A stretch of 38,846 bases of DNA from assembly GCA_028691835.1 (NCBI GenBank), contig JAQUYN010000014.1, positions 5,173 to 44,018 of the forward strand, read 5' to 3'. Position 1 is the stretch's first letter, and each line of letters begins with the position of its first letter. Below the pieces are notes generated by a model. That model was not told where the DNA came from and did no database searches. It saw only the letters and a list, made by a program, of their open reading frames with translations. Below, in pieces: positions 19,354-26,122 of the stretch. Source of the stretch: Alphaproteobacteria bacterium. Its GTDB lineage: Bacteria; Pseudomonadota; Alphaproteobacteria; UBA9219. The translations under genes were made by a program, and so were the position numbers.

Positions 19354-19899
19354 ATGAAGAGAAAAGGCTTATTTTTGGATCGAGACGGGGTTATTAATGA
19401 AGATGTCGGTTACATTGGACAAATTGACCGTTTTGTTTTTAAGCCAGGTATTTTCGATTTTCTGCGGAAGGCTCAAGATCATGGTTATGTGCTTGTTATT
19501 GTCACAAATCAGTCTGGTGTCGCGCGCTGTTTTTACACACGGGAAGATCATCTGGCCGTCACACGTTGGATGATGAAGAAGTTCGCGGAGCAGGGCATTG
19601 TGATAAGCGGAGAATATGCTTGTTTTGAGCATCCTGATGCCAAGGATCCAGCTTATTGTCGTCAAAGTTACTGGCGGAAACCAAACCCCGGCATGATTTT
19701 AGAGGCCGCCGTAAAACTATCTATTGATCTTGCCTCATCAGCCATGGTCGGTGATACAGACCGAGATCTGCAGGCAGCGCAAGCGGCACATGTTGGGCAG
19801 AGTCTTCTTTTGGGGGACGGTCCTTCCCGCGTTCCAGATGTTGTTTGTGTGCCTGATTTTGAGAAGGCTGCTTTGGCTCTTGGGTTCGTTGACGGTTAG
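19354..19899 (+). CDS. HAD-IIIA phosphatase, GmhB-like
   Basis: A 181-residue HAD-superfamily phosphatase of the GmhB/HisB-N type. The nucleophile motif is FLDRDGVIN, motif II is VTNQSG, and the acid motif is MVGDTDRDLQAA. GmhB removes the 7-phosphate from heptose bisphosphate in LPS core synthesis, which fits its neighbour lptD. The structural zinc loop of E. coli GmhB (C-x-H...C-x-C) is mostly lost: the first cysteine remains in CFEHP, but the later pair before RKPNPGM is S-Y-W. The exact substrate is therefore uncertain. Its stop overlaps the lptD stop by 4 bp. Confidence 0.8.
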   Translation: MKRKGLFLDRDGVINEDVGYIGQIDRFVFKPGIFDFLRKAQDHGYVLVIVTNQSGVARCFYTREDHLAVTRWMMKKFAEQGIVISGEYACFEHPDAKDPAYCRQSYWRKPNPGMILEAAVKLSIDLASSAMVGDTDRDLQAAQAAHVGQSLLLGDGPSRVPDVVCVPDFEKAALALGFVDG

Positions 19900-22112
19900 T
19901 CTGTTGAAAGACCACCAATATTTTTCAGGTAGAATTGGAACATGATTGAAGACCCCGCCGATATATCAAGGCGCGAGGTATAGTCACGCTTGGCCGTTAC
20001 ACCCGTTGTGAAGCATTCATCTTGATACAACAGATTTGCATTCATCGCACGAGGACCCGGTGATGGTTTGAAGGCTTGCGTTTGACCGATTGAGAAAGTC
20101 CAATATTTAGCGAACCTTGACGTAAAGCCAAGAGTGGCTTCTTCAAGTTTTTCATTCATCAGTGTCGAAGAATTGTATTGTTCGACAAAAAGATAACTGG
20201 CATAGGGACGAAAAATTTGTGGCCCGATAGAGGTCTGGAATTCTTGTTTTGTGAAAGCCAAATCATGCTGGTCCAACCTAAACCCATAATTTGCCTCAAA
20301 GAGATTTGAAGGTATCAGATCAACGCGTCCGACATAGTCAGAAAGTTTTCGCGTGAGGCCAGACCCTTCTGCAAAAGTATTATCTTGGTTCAAACGAAAG
20401 ACTTGTCCACCAACCATTTCAATTCGGCCACCGTTATCACCGATAATGGCATGCCGTAAACCGTAAGCTGTCCGTGTTCCGCCTTCAACACGATCTAACC
20501 CGGTAAATCTGTTGGCTGAGAAAAGATTTGTTTCATCAAACTCTGTGTCAATGCTGTCTTCATTGGGGAGAATGTGTCGGTTCGATACGCGAGGCGCGAC
20601 TGACAGTACAGCTATAGGTTCAATGATTTGTTGATAAGCGCGGCCATGGCGGCCCATGGGATAGCGCACGGATAGATCCGCTTGGGCAAAAGGTCGTATG
20701 CGTGAGACATCCGTGAAGCTCGATCCCAGAGCTAGGTTGGGGTCTGGCACATTATCAGCCCAATAGCCATCTGCGCGAAGAATGCCGGAAACCGTCGTCA
20801 GAAAACCTGTGTTGGATATAATTTGACGTTCCCATCCGGTATCCACGGACAGTCTGCGTGTGCTTGGTCCTTGTTTTGTAATATCAACATCTTTTTCTCG
20901 CGAGGTCACAAGCAAGCTGCTGTTGAATGACCATCTGCCACCTAGCATTTTGTTGGGTTCACCAAATGCGCTATAGCGAATTTCTGGAGCGACGATAGGT
21001 TCAACTAGCTGGTCGCCGGGGCGGAGATCTTGAAAATAGTAGGTGTTAGCGACGGCATAGTTCCGTCCTTTAAAGTTTTCAAGGTAAGCTTGATTGACCA
21101 GAGTGTCTTCCGCTGAGATGCTATAACGAGGCAAATAGCTTTTATCCGTCGTGATCGCTATCTTTGTTCCAGCTCGCCATGTGTCAGTCAGATCAAACTG
21201 AGCTGTGCCAAACAAATGTCCGCGAAGACGTTGTCCGCGATCATCCCCCGTTTCATCGACAAAGTCCGCTTGTGTTAAGCTTCCTGTCCACTTCATTTCA
21301 CCATTCATGAAGCGATAGCGCCAAGCCGTTTCCAGTTGAAGTTTATCGACGGTGCTGAATGTTGGTGTGACGAGAAGGTCGTTATTCGGGGCTATATCAA
21401 AATAATAGGGCGTGCGCGCCATTGTGCCCAAAATGTTTTTTACGCCCCCTGATGGAGTCAGAAATCCTTGGCGTCGTTTGACCGTTGGATCAGGATGAGA
21501 GAAATAAGGTGTGTAAAAAACAGGAAGGCCGGCGAACTCAAGTGTGGCATCGCGATAGATGACATTCTTTGCTTCCGTATCGTGCGTAATCCGTTTCCCT
21601 TTTAGTTGCCATAAAGGGGGGGCTTTGGGATCTTTGGCGCACAGATTACATGATGAGTAGATTCCTTCCTTTGCGATCAGATAACGCCCCTCATAGCGTT
21701 GTGCATCATTGGCAACAAGTCGTGAATTATCTGGAAAAAGGACACCTATCTTTTCGATCAAACCTTGTTTCATATCTGATGTGAGTTCCATCTGATCTGA
21801 ATATAAAATCTCGCCGGAAGCTTCGGTGAGCGCAACATTGCCTTTGGCAAGCACCACATCGGTTGTTTTGTTGTAGGTTACTTTGTCGGCGCGTAAGATT
21901 TTATCGGAAAGTCCGACTTCAACATGGCCTGTTGCCGTGACAATGTTGGTATTTTCATCAAATGAGATTGTGTCGGCTTCGAGTAAAGGAGGTGGCTTCG
22001 CTTCCGTTTGAGCCATAGAAGATAAAGGCATGAATAGGAGCGCAAACACAAAGAGCCCCGAAAGGAGGCTGGCGTGAAATTTGTGAGTCGTTGGTACGAA
22101 AGCGCGCATCAT
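19896..22112 (-). CDS. lptD: LPS-assembly protein LptD
   Basis: The outer-membrane translocon subunit that, with LptE, inserts lipopolysaccharide into the outer leaflet. The signal peptide (HASLLSGLFVFALLFMPLSSMAQ) is followed by an OstA/LptA-like jellyroll domain with the strands LLEADTISFDENTNIVTATG and VTYNKTTDVVLAKGNV, then a large beta-barrel (LPVFYTPYFSHPDPTVKRRQG, then alternating aromatic strands to the end). Cysteines in YSSCNLC and near the C-terminus (DECFTTG) could form the disulfides LptD needs. About 738 residues from the ATG at 22112, where the signal peptide starts naturally; the frame is open to 22193. It is divergent from the sigma-like gene. Confidence 0.93.
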   Translation of the reverse strand: MMRAFVPTTHKFHASLLSGLFVFALLFMPLSSMAQTEAKPPPLLEADTISFDENTNIVTATGHVEVGLSDKILRADKVTYNKTTDVVLAKGNVALTEASGEILYSDQMELTSDMKQGLIEKIGVLFPDNSRLVANDAQRYEGRYLIAKEGIYSSCNLCAKDPKAPPLWQLKGKRITHDTEAKNVIYRDATLEFAGLPVFYTPYFSHPDPTVKRRQGFLTPSGGVKNILGTMARTPYYFDIAPNNDLLVTPTFSTVDKLQLETAWRYRFMNGEMKWTGSLTQADFVDETGDDRGQRLRGHLFGTAQFDLTDTWRAGTKIAITTDKSYLPRYSISAEDTLVNQAYLENFKGRNYAVANTYYFQDLRPGDQLVEPIVAPEIRYSAFGEPNKMLGGRWSFNSSLLVTSREKDVDITKQGPSTRRLSVDTGWERQIISNTGFLTTVSGILRADGYWADNVPDPNLALGSSFTDVSRIRPFAQADLSVRYPMGRHGRAYQQIIEPIAVLSVAPRVSNRHILPNEDSIDTEFDETNLFSANRFTGLDRVEGGTRTAYGLRHAIIGDNGGRIEMVGGQVFRLNQDNTFAEGSGLTRKLSDYVGRVDLIPSNLFEANYGFRLDQHDLAFTKQEFQTSIGPQIFRPYASYLFVEQYNSSTLMNEKLEEATLGFTSRFAKYWTFSIGQTQAFKPSPGPRAMNANLLYQDECFTTGVTAKRDYTSRLDISAGSSIMFQFYLKNIGGLSTD

Positions 22113-22312
22113 TAAGGATTGCCAAAAAGACGTTGAAACTACAATACCGTAATGCACTGAAAATCTTGATTCTTTGTTAACTTGTGTAAGCAAGATGTTA
22201 ATCTGTTGCTTAGGCCACGAAAACGCATGTAAATAATTGTAACGGTGGCGAGATGTCTGTATTTATCTGATGTTTGTTGACGTATGTTTGAGAAGGACAA
22301 CTCGGATTATTT

Positions 22313-24697
22313 ATGAATATAAAATTGCAGACGCCCAAAAACACAGATTCTTCTGAGGGACAAGAAAACCCCAAAGCCAAGCGGCATAGACGTGGGCAGT
22401 TATTGAACAGTTCATCCCACCCCAACGTGCCAGAACAAATCATAAAAGATTTAGTTGCACGGGGCATTACTACTCAGGCTGAGTTGATTCTTGTTATGCA
22501 AAATCACAAGTATACGTATAGCTATGCAAAAGGTCAGGTGTACGCTTTCTTTTCTACTGGTACTGCTTCTGCAAGAACTTTAGCTATTATTGATGATGTG
22601 TGCGGCTATAGTACAGAGGGCGGTGTTATGCCTTTGGACAGGAAGTTAAGCGGACGTTCCCCGGTTGTTTTGTCGGACACCAATCTTTCCCAACACGTCG
22701 TTGAAGCGTTGGCCCGAAAAGGGATTGCGACTCAAAAAGATCTCGTTCTTGCTTTACAGTTGCATGGCTATAAGGCAAGCACGGCTACTTCACAAATATC
22801 GAAACTGTGTTCAGGAAGAAGTGTTTCTCCACGAGTCCAGACTATCATAAATGTCTTAACAGGCGATGTTTCAGCTGAGACGGGAATTCCTTCATTTGGA
22901 AGTCGTGGCGACCTTTTGTCGGGAAGTAAAATGTCTGTTGAAATTATCCAAGCTTTGGCAGAGCGAGGGATTATAACCCAGCGTGATTTAAGACTCGCGC
23001 TGAAGGGGAGCGGGTATTCCGAAAGCTCGTTAAAGATCAACATAGCTCGATTGTGTCACGGCGAAGACATTCTCCGGCGATTAGCCATTGCTATCGGCAC
23101 GCTAACAGGAACTTTGCCGGAAGGAGCGATGCCTCTACCAAGACAGAAAGTTAGAATGGCAGCGTCTGCGCCCAAAGGCATTAAGGCTGAGCGTAAGGAT
23201 CACAGAAGTTACATTGACATTATAAAATCTGCTTTTTCCGCAGGTGGTCTGGATGTTCAATTACAGGCCCATCCCTCCTCGCCAAAAGGACTTAGATCCT
23301 CTCTTGGTTTTACGAAACCATTTGCCCTTGATTCGTACAGAACGTTGAGGCCGTTCGTTTATGAACGGCTCGATAGTCAAGCGGAGTGGAAGGGGGATTG
23401 GTTTCGCTTCGATGTCAACTATAGAACAGAAGTTTCCAAGTTGCCAAAAATTAGCCATGAGGTTGAGAAGGAAATAGGACAATCAATCCGTTGTGAAACT
23501 GAGGCAATGATTGAAGCGTTTTGTTCAATACCTGCATCCTTGCGGGCCATACGATCCTTGTATCAAGCTTTTGTGACAAGGCCTGATTGCCTTGGGCACG
23601 TGGCTGTTCGTTACATAGGGAGAGACTCTGACGATCTTTTTCTTCCTTATCAAAGCGATCTTGCGCGGAGCAAGTTTTGCGAAATTGTTGAGTTGTGTGA
23701 TGATTTGTTAACGCCAGAGAAGGACCAGAGTGTTCCCCGCAAAGAAATACAGAAAAAACTCGTCAAAGAAATCTCTCGTTTTTATCCGCTCACAGAGTAT
23801 TGGCGCGAAATGCGGCAATCTCTAAAAGGGTATGTGGCTTGCCAAGAACTACGCCAAAAATATATGGGGGATGATGCGGTCGGCGTCTCGGCTATAACAG
23901 AAGATATAGGTATGCCGGTTCAGTGCTTAGCGTCGATTGCAGGCAGTATTTCTGAACGGATGGATAGCATTCAAGGTTTAAAAAGTCATTTAGTCAAAGT
24001 GCAACTTCCCGAAATACGTGATGTGGCCGTTCATTATGCTCAGACACACGATGAGGCCCTATGTATTTCCAGCCTTCTTGTATCTAAAATTATTCATCAT
24101 ACCGATAGGTGGGATTATACAAAAGATGGTCGGCTTATGCCCTTCGTTCAAAAGTATATCGTGCCTGTTATTACTGAGGCTTTTCTTGAGGAAAGTTTGC
24201 TTCCGGTTGCAATCTCTCAACATCATTTTCGTATCGCACAAGCTCAGGAGAAAATCTTTGTAAGGCAGGGGCCCCATTGCTCAAGGGAAGAGTTAGCTGC
24301 TGAGACAAAATTAACGCCACGGACTCTCGCTGTTCGTGAGGCGCGAAACATGGAGTTTATTCCGATCAATCAGGTAAACCCGCGAGAGTATGTAGATCAT
24401 GTTCCCTTGGACTTGACTTCAGACCCGGCGATGATTTTCGAAAAAACGGATTTGGACGCTTTGGTGAATCGAATAGTTCAGAATAAGGCGGAATCTGGAT
24501 TAACAGATCGTGAGGTCGATGTGTTGTGCTATCGTTTTGGCTGTGGTCATTCGGATGGAGAACCTATGACGTTAAGAGCCGTGAGTAATAAGATCAAAGT
24601 ATCGTACGAACTTGTTCGATTAGATGAAGATAACGCACAACGAAAGCTTCGCACGGGACCGTTGCGGCACGTGCTTTATGATTTATGCTATGGCTGA
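22313..24697 (+). CDS. Divergent sigma-70-like protein with three N-terminal repeats
   Basis: A 794-residue protein of unusual layout. Residues 38-98, 124-184 and 207-266 are three copies of an about 60-residue unit with the shared pattern L..[RK]GI.TQ.DL.LAL...Y, a small-residue turn, and a closing [CL]TG, each followed by a short E.G.MP-like spacer; the pattern resembles an XRE-type helix-turn-helix. From about 380 the order follows RpoD: a region 1.2-like helix (380-412), a region 2-like stretch (555-625), region 3 (629-676, EELAAETKLTPRTL) and region 4 (728-790, LTDREVDVLCYRFGCG then RAVSNKIKVSYELVR and AQRKLR). The YATWWIR promoter-melting motif is replaced by FVQKYIV. It could be an alternative sigma or an RNA polymerase-binding regulator. 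Alignment is by eye. Confidence 0.7.
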   Translation: MNIKLQTPKNTDSSEGQENPKAKRHRRGQLLNSSSHPNVPEQIIKDLVARGITTQAELILVMQNHKYTYSYAKGQVYAFFSTGTASARTLAIIDDVCGYSTEGGVMPLDRKLSGRSPVVLSDTNLSQHVVEALARKGIATQKDLVLALQLHGYKASTATSQISKLCSGRSVSPRVQTIINVLTGDVSAETGIPSFGSRGDLLSGSKMSVEIIQALAERGIITQRDLRLALKGSGYSESSLKINIARLCHGEDILRRLAIAIGTLTGTLPEGAMPLPRQKVRMAASAPKGIKAERKDHRSYIDIIKSAFSAGGLDVQLQAHPSSPKGLRSSLGFTKPFALDSYRTLRPFVYERLDSQAEWKGDWFRFDVNYRTEVSKLPKISHEVEKEIGQSIRCETEAMIEAFCSIPASLRAIRSLYQAFVTRPDCLGHVAVRYIGRDSDDLFLPYQSDLARSKFCEIVELCDDLLTPEKDQSVPRKEIQKKLVKEISRFYPLTEYWREMRQSLKGYVACQELRQKYMGDDAVGVSAITEDIGMPVQCLASIAGSISERMDSIQGLKSHLVKVQLPEIRDVAVHYAQTHDEALCISSLLVSKIIHHTDRWDYTKDGRLMPFVQKYIVPVITEAFLEESLLPVAISQHHFRIAQAQEKIFVRQGPHCSREELAAETKLTPRTLAVREARNMEFIPINQVNPREYVDHVPLDLTSDPAMIFEKTDLDALVNRIVQNKAESGLTDREVDVLCYRFGCGHSDGEPMTLRAVSNKIKVSYELVRLDEDNAQRKLRTGPLRHVLYDLCYG

Positions 24698-26122
24698 TTA
24701 AGACGAACGCTTCGCGACGGATCGAGGTCGACGCAGGAAAGCTGGTAAGTTCTCGCCAAAAGCTGCAGTTGTTTCAGTCATTGGTGACTCATGAATGCTT
24801 GCTCGCGGTGCTCGGACGGCTTCCACTTCGCCCGGATGAGGAACATGACGTGGCGATTCAAAGACGCGATTTTCTTGAATTTCTTGTTCCGGTTTTGGCT
24901 CACGACGATTGCGTCCGCGATTTTGACCTGAGCGTTGGCGTGATGACAATGTTTTGGCTCGTCTTGAGATGCTTTCATCGGGCTGCGGGAGGTTCGGAAT
25001 AATCCCGCGATTAATTTCTTTTTTGATCAGGGCTTCAATGGCTGAGACAAGCTTACTCTCCTCTGGTGTGACGAGAGTTACTGCTGTACCTGTTTTGCCC
25101 GCCCGCCCAGTTCGCCCGATACGATGAACGTAATCTTCGGCATTAAACGGAACGTCATAGTTAAAGACGTGGCTTACATCCGCGATATCAAGACCTCGTG
25201 CGGCGACATCTGAGCAAACCAAAAGCGAAATCTCGCCGTTACGGAAAGCATTGAGTGTGTCCGTGCGTGTGGATTGTGTAAGGTCGCCATGCAGCGCTCC
25301 AGCGTTAAACCCGTGTTTGGTCAGAGATTTTTGAAGAAGAGCGACATCGCGTTTGCGATTGCAGAAGATAAAAGCATTCGCAACATTTTGCTCACGAAGC
25401 AAATGTCTCAAGGCTTCTCGCTTTTGCCAATCATTCGTGCTTGGCAAGTCAATCAGGGAGTGTTGAATGTTCACGCCTGTACTGGCGGGCGGCGATACTG
25501 TAACCGTTTTGGGGTTGCTCAGGAAACGATCTGCCAACTTGCGGATTTCCGGTGGCATGGTGGCTGAGAAAAAGAGTGTTTGACGCATAGGGGGTAAAAG
25601 ACCCGCGATTTTCTCGATATCAGGAATGAACCCCATGTCCAACATGCGATCAGCTTCATCGATCACAAAGATTTTGATGTCATTGAGCATGATACGCCCA
25701 CGTTCGAACAAGTCGATGAGGCGACCAGGAGTGGCAATAAGAACATCAACGCCACGTTCAAGATTCTTGATTTGCGGGTCCATATTCTCGCCACCAATCA
25801 GCAAAGCCATGCTCAGGCCTGTGTGATATTTTCCGTATAGGCGGAAGTTCTCGGCGACTTGTGTGGCGAGTTCGCGTGTTGGCTCAAGGATAAGGGATCG
25901 TGGCATGCGCGCACGTGCGCGACCTGATGCCAAGATTTCAATCATGGGCAGAGTAAAGCCCGCCGTTTTTCCAGTTCCGGTTTGTGCGCAACCAAGCACG
26001 TCCCTCATTTGAAGGACATAAGGGATGGCTTGTTCTTGAATGGGTGTTGGGGTTGTGTAGCCGACGTCTTCAATGGCCTTGAGGGTTTCGTCGCTTAATC
26101 CCAGATCTGTGAATGTTGTCAC
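24698..26122 (-). CDS. DEAD-box RNA helicase, RhlE-like
   Basis: A 474-residue ATP-dependent RNA helicase. The Q motif (GYTTPTPIQEQAIP), motif I (AQTGTGKT), PTRELA, TPGRL, DEAD (VIDEADRMLDMGF), SAT (FFSATMP), and motifs IV-VI (IFCNRKR, DVAARGLDI, HRIGRTGRAG) are all present. The core covers about residues 1-370. A basic, glutamine- and arginine-rich C-terminal tail (about 380-474) would bind RNA. It acts in RNA unwinding during ribosome assembly or decay. The match is to the RhlE/RhlB group, so no symbol is assigned. Its stop directly abuts the stop of the sigma-like gene. Confidence 0.92.
   Translation of the reverse strand: MTTFTDLGLSDETLKAIEDVGYTTPTPIQEQAIPYVLQMRDVLGCAQTGTGKTAGFTLPMIEILASGRARARMPRSLILEPTRELATQVAENFRLYGKYHTGLSMALLIGGENMDPQIKNLERGVDVLIATPGRLIDLFERGRIMLNDIKIFVIDEADRMLDMGFIPDIEKIAGLLPPMRQTLFFSATMPPEIRKLADRFLSNPKTVTVSPPASTGVNIQHSLIDLPSTNDWQKREALRHLLREQNVANAFIFCNRKRDVALLQKSLTKHGFNAGALHGDLTQSTRTDTLNAFRNGEISLLVCSDVAARGLDIADVSHVFNYDVPFNAEDYVHRIGRTGRAGKTGTAVTLVTPEESKLVSAIEALIKKEINRGIIPNLPQPDESISRRAKTLSSRQRSGQNRGRNRREPKPEQEIQENRVFESPRHVPHPGEVEAVRAPRASIHESPMTETTAAFGENLPAFLRRPRSVAKRSS

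Follow-up and report, generated by a model that had tools for sequence, protein, structure and literature searches.

Sigma factors are usually held to read promoters by fixed domains, their regulation being left to separate proteins. The locus described here raises the question of what a protein does when a sigma-70-like sequence is joined to a tandem array of small repeats. The gene, encoding 794 amino acids, lies in a window of 38,846 nucleotides (the whole stretch of DNA that was analysed) from an alphaproteobacterium of the GTDB lineage UBA9219. The coordinates of its features and of the adjoining genes are collected in Table 1.

The reading frame is coding-like in composition (GC1/2/3 = 53.6/41.3/41.0), and the five remaining frames over 22313-24697 contain 34-52 stops each. 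The protein has evolved fast: its terminal branch in the sigma tree, where its position is unsure, measures 4.0 changes per site. About 4.7% of the single-base changes in the frame would create a stop, and the chance of finding none at one unconstrained change per codon is ~5e-17. Divergence this large without any stop argues that the frame was kept under protein-level selection during its past history. In codon usage the gene departs from 20 other genes of the genome, as does a second accessory sigma (contig C73); this fits a foreign origin, or fast evolution together with low expression. A phage or plasmid origin is without support, since searches of phages and plasmids returned generic sigma matches alone. 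Searches with the full protein found no orthologue among 59 relatives, which gave only sigma and module matches, nor in the genome contigs collection and viral contigs.

The initial annotation had proposed looking for orthologues and asking whether a normal rpoD exists alongside. The search yielded none, and a normal RpoD is present in the same genome, on C28. Besides it, this genome of 2.54 Mb (completeness 94%, contamination 5.3%) encodes a sigma the size of RpoH (C55), one the size of an ECF factor (C57) and, on C73, an RpoD-like sigma whose YATWWVR is intact and which is preceded by a long N-terminal extension. The C73 gene (L028:5205-8126, minus strand) encodes up to 973 aa, and the similarity of its extension to the repeats discussed below is borderline at most.

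The nearest neighbours of the 794-aa gene are lptD, a DEAD helicase gene and kdp genes. In the congener G002, lptD adjoins the DEAD gene, with ~0.4 kb and no ORF between them and a kdpD fragment next; in five other genomes of the family the DEAD gene is likewise near lptD. The site is therefore vacant in G002, and the 794-aa gene either arrived at it or persisted there. The conservation of the flanks argues that the contig is not chimeric.

Table 1. Features of the 794-aa reading frame and its adjoining genes (positions in the window).
Feature	Position	Strand	Basis
lptD, divergent upstream neighbour	19896..22193	-	Pfam LptD E 2.1e-53
Sigma-70-derived ORF with three N-terminal modules	22313..24697	+	ATG start, 794 aa, no internal stop
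Module copy 1 (residues 38-99)	22424..22609	+	shuffle test; leave-protein-out HMM 13.4 bits
Module copy 2 (residues 124-185)	22682..22867	+	shuffle test; leave-protein-out HMM 25.2 bits; AF2 model of residues 118-195 with four helices
Module copy 3 (residues 206-267)	22928..23113	+	shuffle test; leave-protein-out HMM 16.3 bits
Sigma region 1.2 and non-conserved region (residues 371-556)	23423..23980	+	order sigma HMM; residues 301-556 alone E 6.1e-10
Degenerate sigma region 2 (residues 557-628)	23981..24196	+	3/23 and 5/35 identities to own RpoD; 3-residue gap
FVQKYIVPVITEAF where RpoD has YATWWIRQAITRSI	24143..24184	+	alignment with RpoD
Sigma region 3-like segment (residues 630-712)	24200..24448	+	aligned in PDB search and order HMM; weakly conserved
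Sigma region 4 (residues 729-782)	24497..24658	+	Pfam Sigma70_r4 E 4.4e-5; RpoD identities in 4.1/4.2
DEAD-box RNA helicase, convergent downstream neighbour	24698..26122	-	Pfam DEAD E 2.8e-49; synteny

The three repeats of the N-terminal part are homologous beyond doubt. They align without gaps, with 16-25 identities per 62 positions, and the ungapped BLOSUM scores of their pairs lie 6 to 10 SD over those of shuffles, none of 20,000 shuffles scoring as high. The motif L..[RK]GI.TQ.[DE]L and a terminal CG or TG are found in them, much as the initial annotation had described for three repeats of about 60 residues. Codon third positions agree between the copies at close to the chance level, with the protein pattern retained; the duplications are therefore old, and the copies were constrained as protein. 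With a pI of 6.8, copy 1 lacks a basic character. Copy 2 has 38% identity with the module of a one-module sigma in a congener, G001, whereas the sigma cores of the two proteins are 18% identical; over that core G001 and RpoD share 45%. Relative to G001, these identities show the modules of the 794-aa protein as now better conserved than its sigma core.

In sigma-70, regions 2.1-2.2 serve in core binding and regions 2.3-2.4 in melting the -10 element. The ancestry of the C-terminal part was examined with a profile made from thirteen sigmas of the order, the 794-aa protein being left out. Residues 371-782 match it at E 1.6e-22, and the stretch 301-556 does so by itself at E about 6e-10 (6.1e-10); the whole scaffold from region 1.2 to region 4.2 is thus inherited from an RpoD-like sigma, in line with the likeness from region 1.2 to region 4 seen at first inspection. 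General databases recognise the C-terminal half only: a PDB search matches HrdB/SigA at 557-790 (E 1.7e-7), and Pfam Sigma70_r4 matches at 729-780 (E 4.4e-5; 0.7 bit below the curated cut-off in hmmscan, above it in a six-frame search). The sigma-70 reading had been made to depend on profile matches in regions 3 and 4, and matches to both were obtained.

The conservation is uneven along this scaffold. The identities to the RpoD of the same genome are 3/23 in regions 2.1-2.2, 5/35 in 2.3-2.4, 5/42 in 3.0/3.1 and 4/34 in 3.2, against 14/33 in 4.1 and 8/20 in 4.2. Region 4 is the best-kept sigma part, as the initial annotation had judged by eye. Where a core-binding motif of the DLIQEGNIGL type is expected in region 2.1-2.2, the protein reads LCISSLLVS---KII, with a 3-residue gap. 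In the motif for -10 melting and recognition (2.3-2.4), which had been suspected of alteration, FVQKYIVPVITE (residues 611-622) indeed replaces the RpoD YATWWIRQAITR, and both tryptophans of the YATWWIR stretch are gone. For comparison, the G001 sigma has 13/23 and 23/35 identities to RpoD in the same two regions. The alignments show the residues of region 2 that grip the core and melt the -10 element as lost in the 794-aa protein. At the recognition helix of region 4.2 (TRERIRQIE) it reads KVSYELVRLDEDNAQRKLR, with the 8/20 identities given above; here it is likely that the fold is kept and the contacts are altered. The first proposal, a specialised sigma or an RNA polymerase-binding regulator, thus stands as regards sigma ancestry, but the loss of the core-binding motif of region 2.2, on which the initial annotation was silent, speaks against a simple specialised sigma.

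The repeat is covered by no Pfam family, and it is not private to this protein. It is present in 5 of 33 genomes of the order (mostly draft assemblies; the E values within the order depend on small databases), and in all five it occurs within a sigma ORF. The earliest profile, built from four copies, hit sigma ORFs alone: the 794-aa protein and proteins of G001, G018 and G029. With wider profiles, matches also came from an ECF sigma in G022 and from three G029 ORFs beside a sigma-54 activator. The layouts vary. The G001 sigma (574 aa, YATWWIR intact) carries one module, and that of G018 has its module at the C-terminus. In G029, a 1805-aa protein (L029:5555-10972, plus strand) consists of an intact RpoD-like sigma followed by nine modules with lysine/alanine-rich linkers. 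The ECF-type sigma of G022 (L166:2567-4003, minus strand; Pfam Sigma70_r2, PhyR_sigma2 and Sigma70_r4_2) has two C-terminal modules. The three other G029 ORFs follow the gene of a sigma-54 activator AAA+ protein (L165:2689-7301, plus strand), each with Fis-type HTHs and modules, and are the only non-sigma hosts in these genomes. Leave-protein-out E values are 2.4e-17 for the 794-aa protein, 7e-11 for G001, 2.9e-15 for G018, 1.4e-15 for the G022 ECF sigma, 1e-88 for the nine-copy sigma and 2e-12 to 5e-33 for the three G029 ORFs.

Some candidates were set aside. The C73 paralogue and an RpoD paralogue in G015 are alike by eye, and with leave-protein-out E values of 0.033 and 0.81, respectively, they were not counted. 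About 380 genomes sampled evenly over the class gave no real match outside the order: a G369 match of the 19-module profile lies in a frame on the opposite strand of a gene for an ABC transporter ATPase, and two matches of the 12-module profile, L062 (which reads as an ankyrin-like ORF) and L063, were not recovered with 19 modules. PPR matches of the 19-module profile are weak scores summed over designed repeats, no single stretch passing. The sequence comparisons thus extend the repeat to a module of the lineage, recurring in sigma factors of the order. An association with transcription is argued for by its hosts, which are sigmas in all five genomes and otherwise proteins with Fis-type HTHs by a sigma-54 activator. 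Those relatives that carry the module and keep the sigma motifs intact are probably true sigmas.

Other unusual sigma-like genes are found in the order. Two congeners, G004 and G005, have a related sigma-like pair (L043:3376-4890, minus strand, and L047:2470-3966, plus strand) with a changed -10 motif, YAKSWIV, and a long joint branch of 2.87. A sigma-70 with N-terminal ankyrin repeats is encoded in G019 (L041:1160-3220, plus strand), and an ORF of G032 (L050:3485-5818, minus strand) joins a superfamily 2 helicase to a C-terminal sigma region 4.

The fold of the module was approached by prediction. For copy 2, an AF2 model built on an alignment of 4 sequences (the three copies plus the G001 module) has four helices with a core pLDDT of 82-89. 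A single-sequence prediction of residues 31-286 is poor (pLDDT 44) and still gives four helices per repeat. With the four-sequence model Foldseek finds nothing significant (best E 0.37). The top rows of the VIA list are mostly XRE domains (HipB, C.Csp231I, SinR, 434 repressor), at insignificant Z of 4 to 4.8, and the remainder includes RAD51-type and BAF domains. The Pfam XRE families do not match the three repeats at E up to 10, and Arg_repressor matches copy 2 weakly (0.04); the 12-module profile in turn weakly matches ArgR in the PDB (0.037; 0.92 with 19 modules). The module profile does not score above a cyclic-shift null against 30 genuine XRE domains from relatives; a seeming support for XRE homology from one shuffle null vanished under this stricter one. 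The structure prediction that the initial annotation had suggested thus gives a four-helix model without a significant fold match. In favour of the helix-turn-helix character it had assigned to the repeats are the four helices and the predominance of XRE-type resemblance, but the scores are insignificant and the profile comparison lies within its null. An HTH-like module is our best guess. Given the four helices and the weak XRE-like fold matches, DNA binding is plausible, though the modules may instead serve in protein interaction.

What, then, does the 794-aa protein do? We favour, at somewhat less than even confidence, a sigma-derived regulator whose conserved, working part would be the modules. 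It would be a working paralogue of the lineage's RpoD-type sigmas, evolving fast, which has retained the scaffold from 1.2 to 4.2 but, at the level of sequence, has lost the residues that grip the RNA polymerase clamp and melt the -10 element. Ordinary promoters would not be opened by it. The modules would recognise DNA (most likely) or a partner, and the sigma-like half, region 4 above all, would contact RNA polymerase or upstream DNA. The relatives with intact sigma motifs would probably be working sigmas whose activity or promoter choice is tuned by the module. Several points count against this reading: that the module is an HTH is a guess, basic character is missing from copy 1, region 4.2 is altered too, making the -35 contact uncertain, and no orthologue was found by which to measure selection on the present form directly. 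Moreover, terminal repeats of sigmas, such as TPR and WD40, are thought to work through protein contact (PMC8999054). This last point leads to an alternative that we consider unlikely, in which the modules are protein-interaction or sensor repeats, like the TPR tails of ECF42 or the WD40 tails of ECF57, with the sigma part as effector. Sigmas with N- or C-terminal TPR, WD40 or Ank_2 are indeed described (PMC11119718; PMC8999054), the ankyrin-bearing sigma of G019 comes from the same order, and the structural resemblance of the module to HTHs is insignificant. However, the AF2 model resembles XRE HTHs oftener than other classes in the VIA list, and the sole non-sigma hosts also bear Fis-type HTHs.

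A true alternative sigma, its diverged region 2 binding core and reading an unusual -10 element while the modules stabilise or select promoters, also seems rather improbable. The full scaffold is kept, the module-bearing relatives retain YATWW and a DLVQEG motif, and odd -10 motifs (e.g., YAKSWIV and YASYWIN) occur in other sigmas of the order. Yet the few matches to RpoD in 2.1-2.2, the gap in the core-binding motif and the loss of both tryptophans are hard on such a sigma, and the G004 and G005 sigmas, diverged as they are, keep more of the core-binding motif (DRFQAG..GL). Less probable still, and by our estimate quite unlikely, is a decoy in the manner of PhyR, sequestering an anti-sigma or occupying the polymerase and so freeing or blocking another sigma. 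The PhyR-NepR-EcfG system is a precedent in this bacterial class (PMC8103513; PMC5830050), and a retained scaffold without promoter-opening residues would suit a decoy. Against it, the protein is without a receiver domain, its sigma part is RpoD-like rather than ECF-like, no anti-sigma gene was recognised among the neighbours examined, and the tandem modules need a separate explanation. Returning to the sigma-derived regulator, a wider scenario can be sketched, which we regard as doubtful: the order may have invented an HTH-like module and placed it, in 1-9 copies, on RpoD-like sigmas, an ECF sigma and sigma-54-linked regulators for reading extended DNA, the sigma part of the 794-aa protein having later lost promoter opening to leave a DNA-binding regulator.

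How does the protein compare with known systems? It shares its scaffold with group 1/2 sigma-70 factors (RpoD, SigA, HrdB), its best matches being HrdB/SigA and the SigD/SigC/RpoD models, but differs from them in the erased core-binding and -10 motifs and the extra N-terminal modules. All its NCBIfam scores are far under cut-off, and Pfam finds no region 1.1. The accessory repeats described on sigmas (TPR in ECF42, WD40 in ECF57, and Ank_2, TPR_MalT or WD40 in cyanobacteria) are terminal and never lie between sigma domains (PMC8999054; PMC11119718). The 794-aa protein, a sigma core with a terminal array of small repeats, is similar; its module, in contrast, is outside Pfam, confined to one order in the genomes searched, and found on RpoD-like and ECF sigmas alike. 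In PhyR, a sigma-like domain acts through anti-sigma binding (PMC8103513; PMC5830050), and in the 794-aa protein too the sigma-like domain is not expected to initiate transcription. PhyR, however, joins an ECF-like domain to a receiver domain; in the 794-aa protein, tandem modules accompany an RpoD-like part, and neither a receiver domain nor PhyR_sigma2 was found by Pfam (E up to 1). MzaA, the sigma of the MZA anti-phage system, is likewise RpoD-like with a long N-terminal extension. Identity with it was rejected: the score is 25.5 bits against an NCBIfam cut-off of 800, the sigma part alone matches, and the nearest neighbours are housekeeping genes. A defence role was similarly set aside, PADLOC yielding only a weak MzaA match on the sigma part. 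With XRE/Cro-CI HTHs the module shares the four-helix prediction and most top VIA matches, but not a Pfam XRE match, and the similarity stays at Z <=4.8, Foldseek E >=0.37 and a profile comparison inside the cyclic-shift null. No sigma that bears this module, or HTH-like domains arrayed in tandem, was found in the openly licensed papers searched, which agrees with the initial remark that no described sigma of such layout is known.

In closing, the sigma-attached module of this order suggests that transcription may be directed or controlled in a manner not yet described. If real, a module limited to one order (as far as searched) and borne by several unrelated types of sigma would amount to a built-in device for targeting or control, and it raises the question of how far sigma factors can become ordinary regulators. 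The intact one-module sigma, the nine-module sigma and the worn-out three-module protein would form a natural series for following the gain and loss of sigma function.
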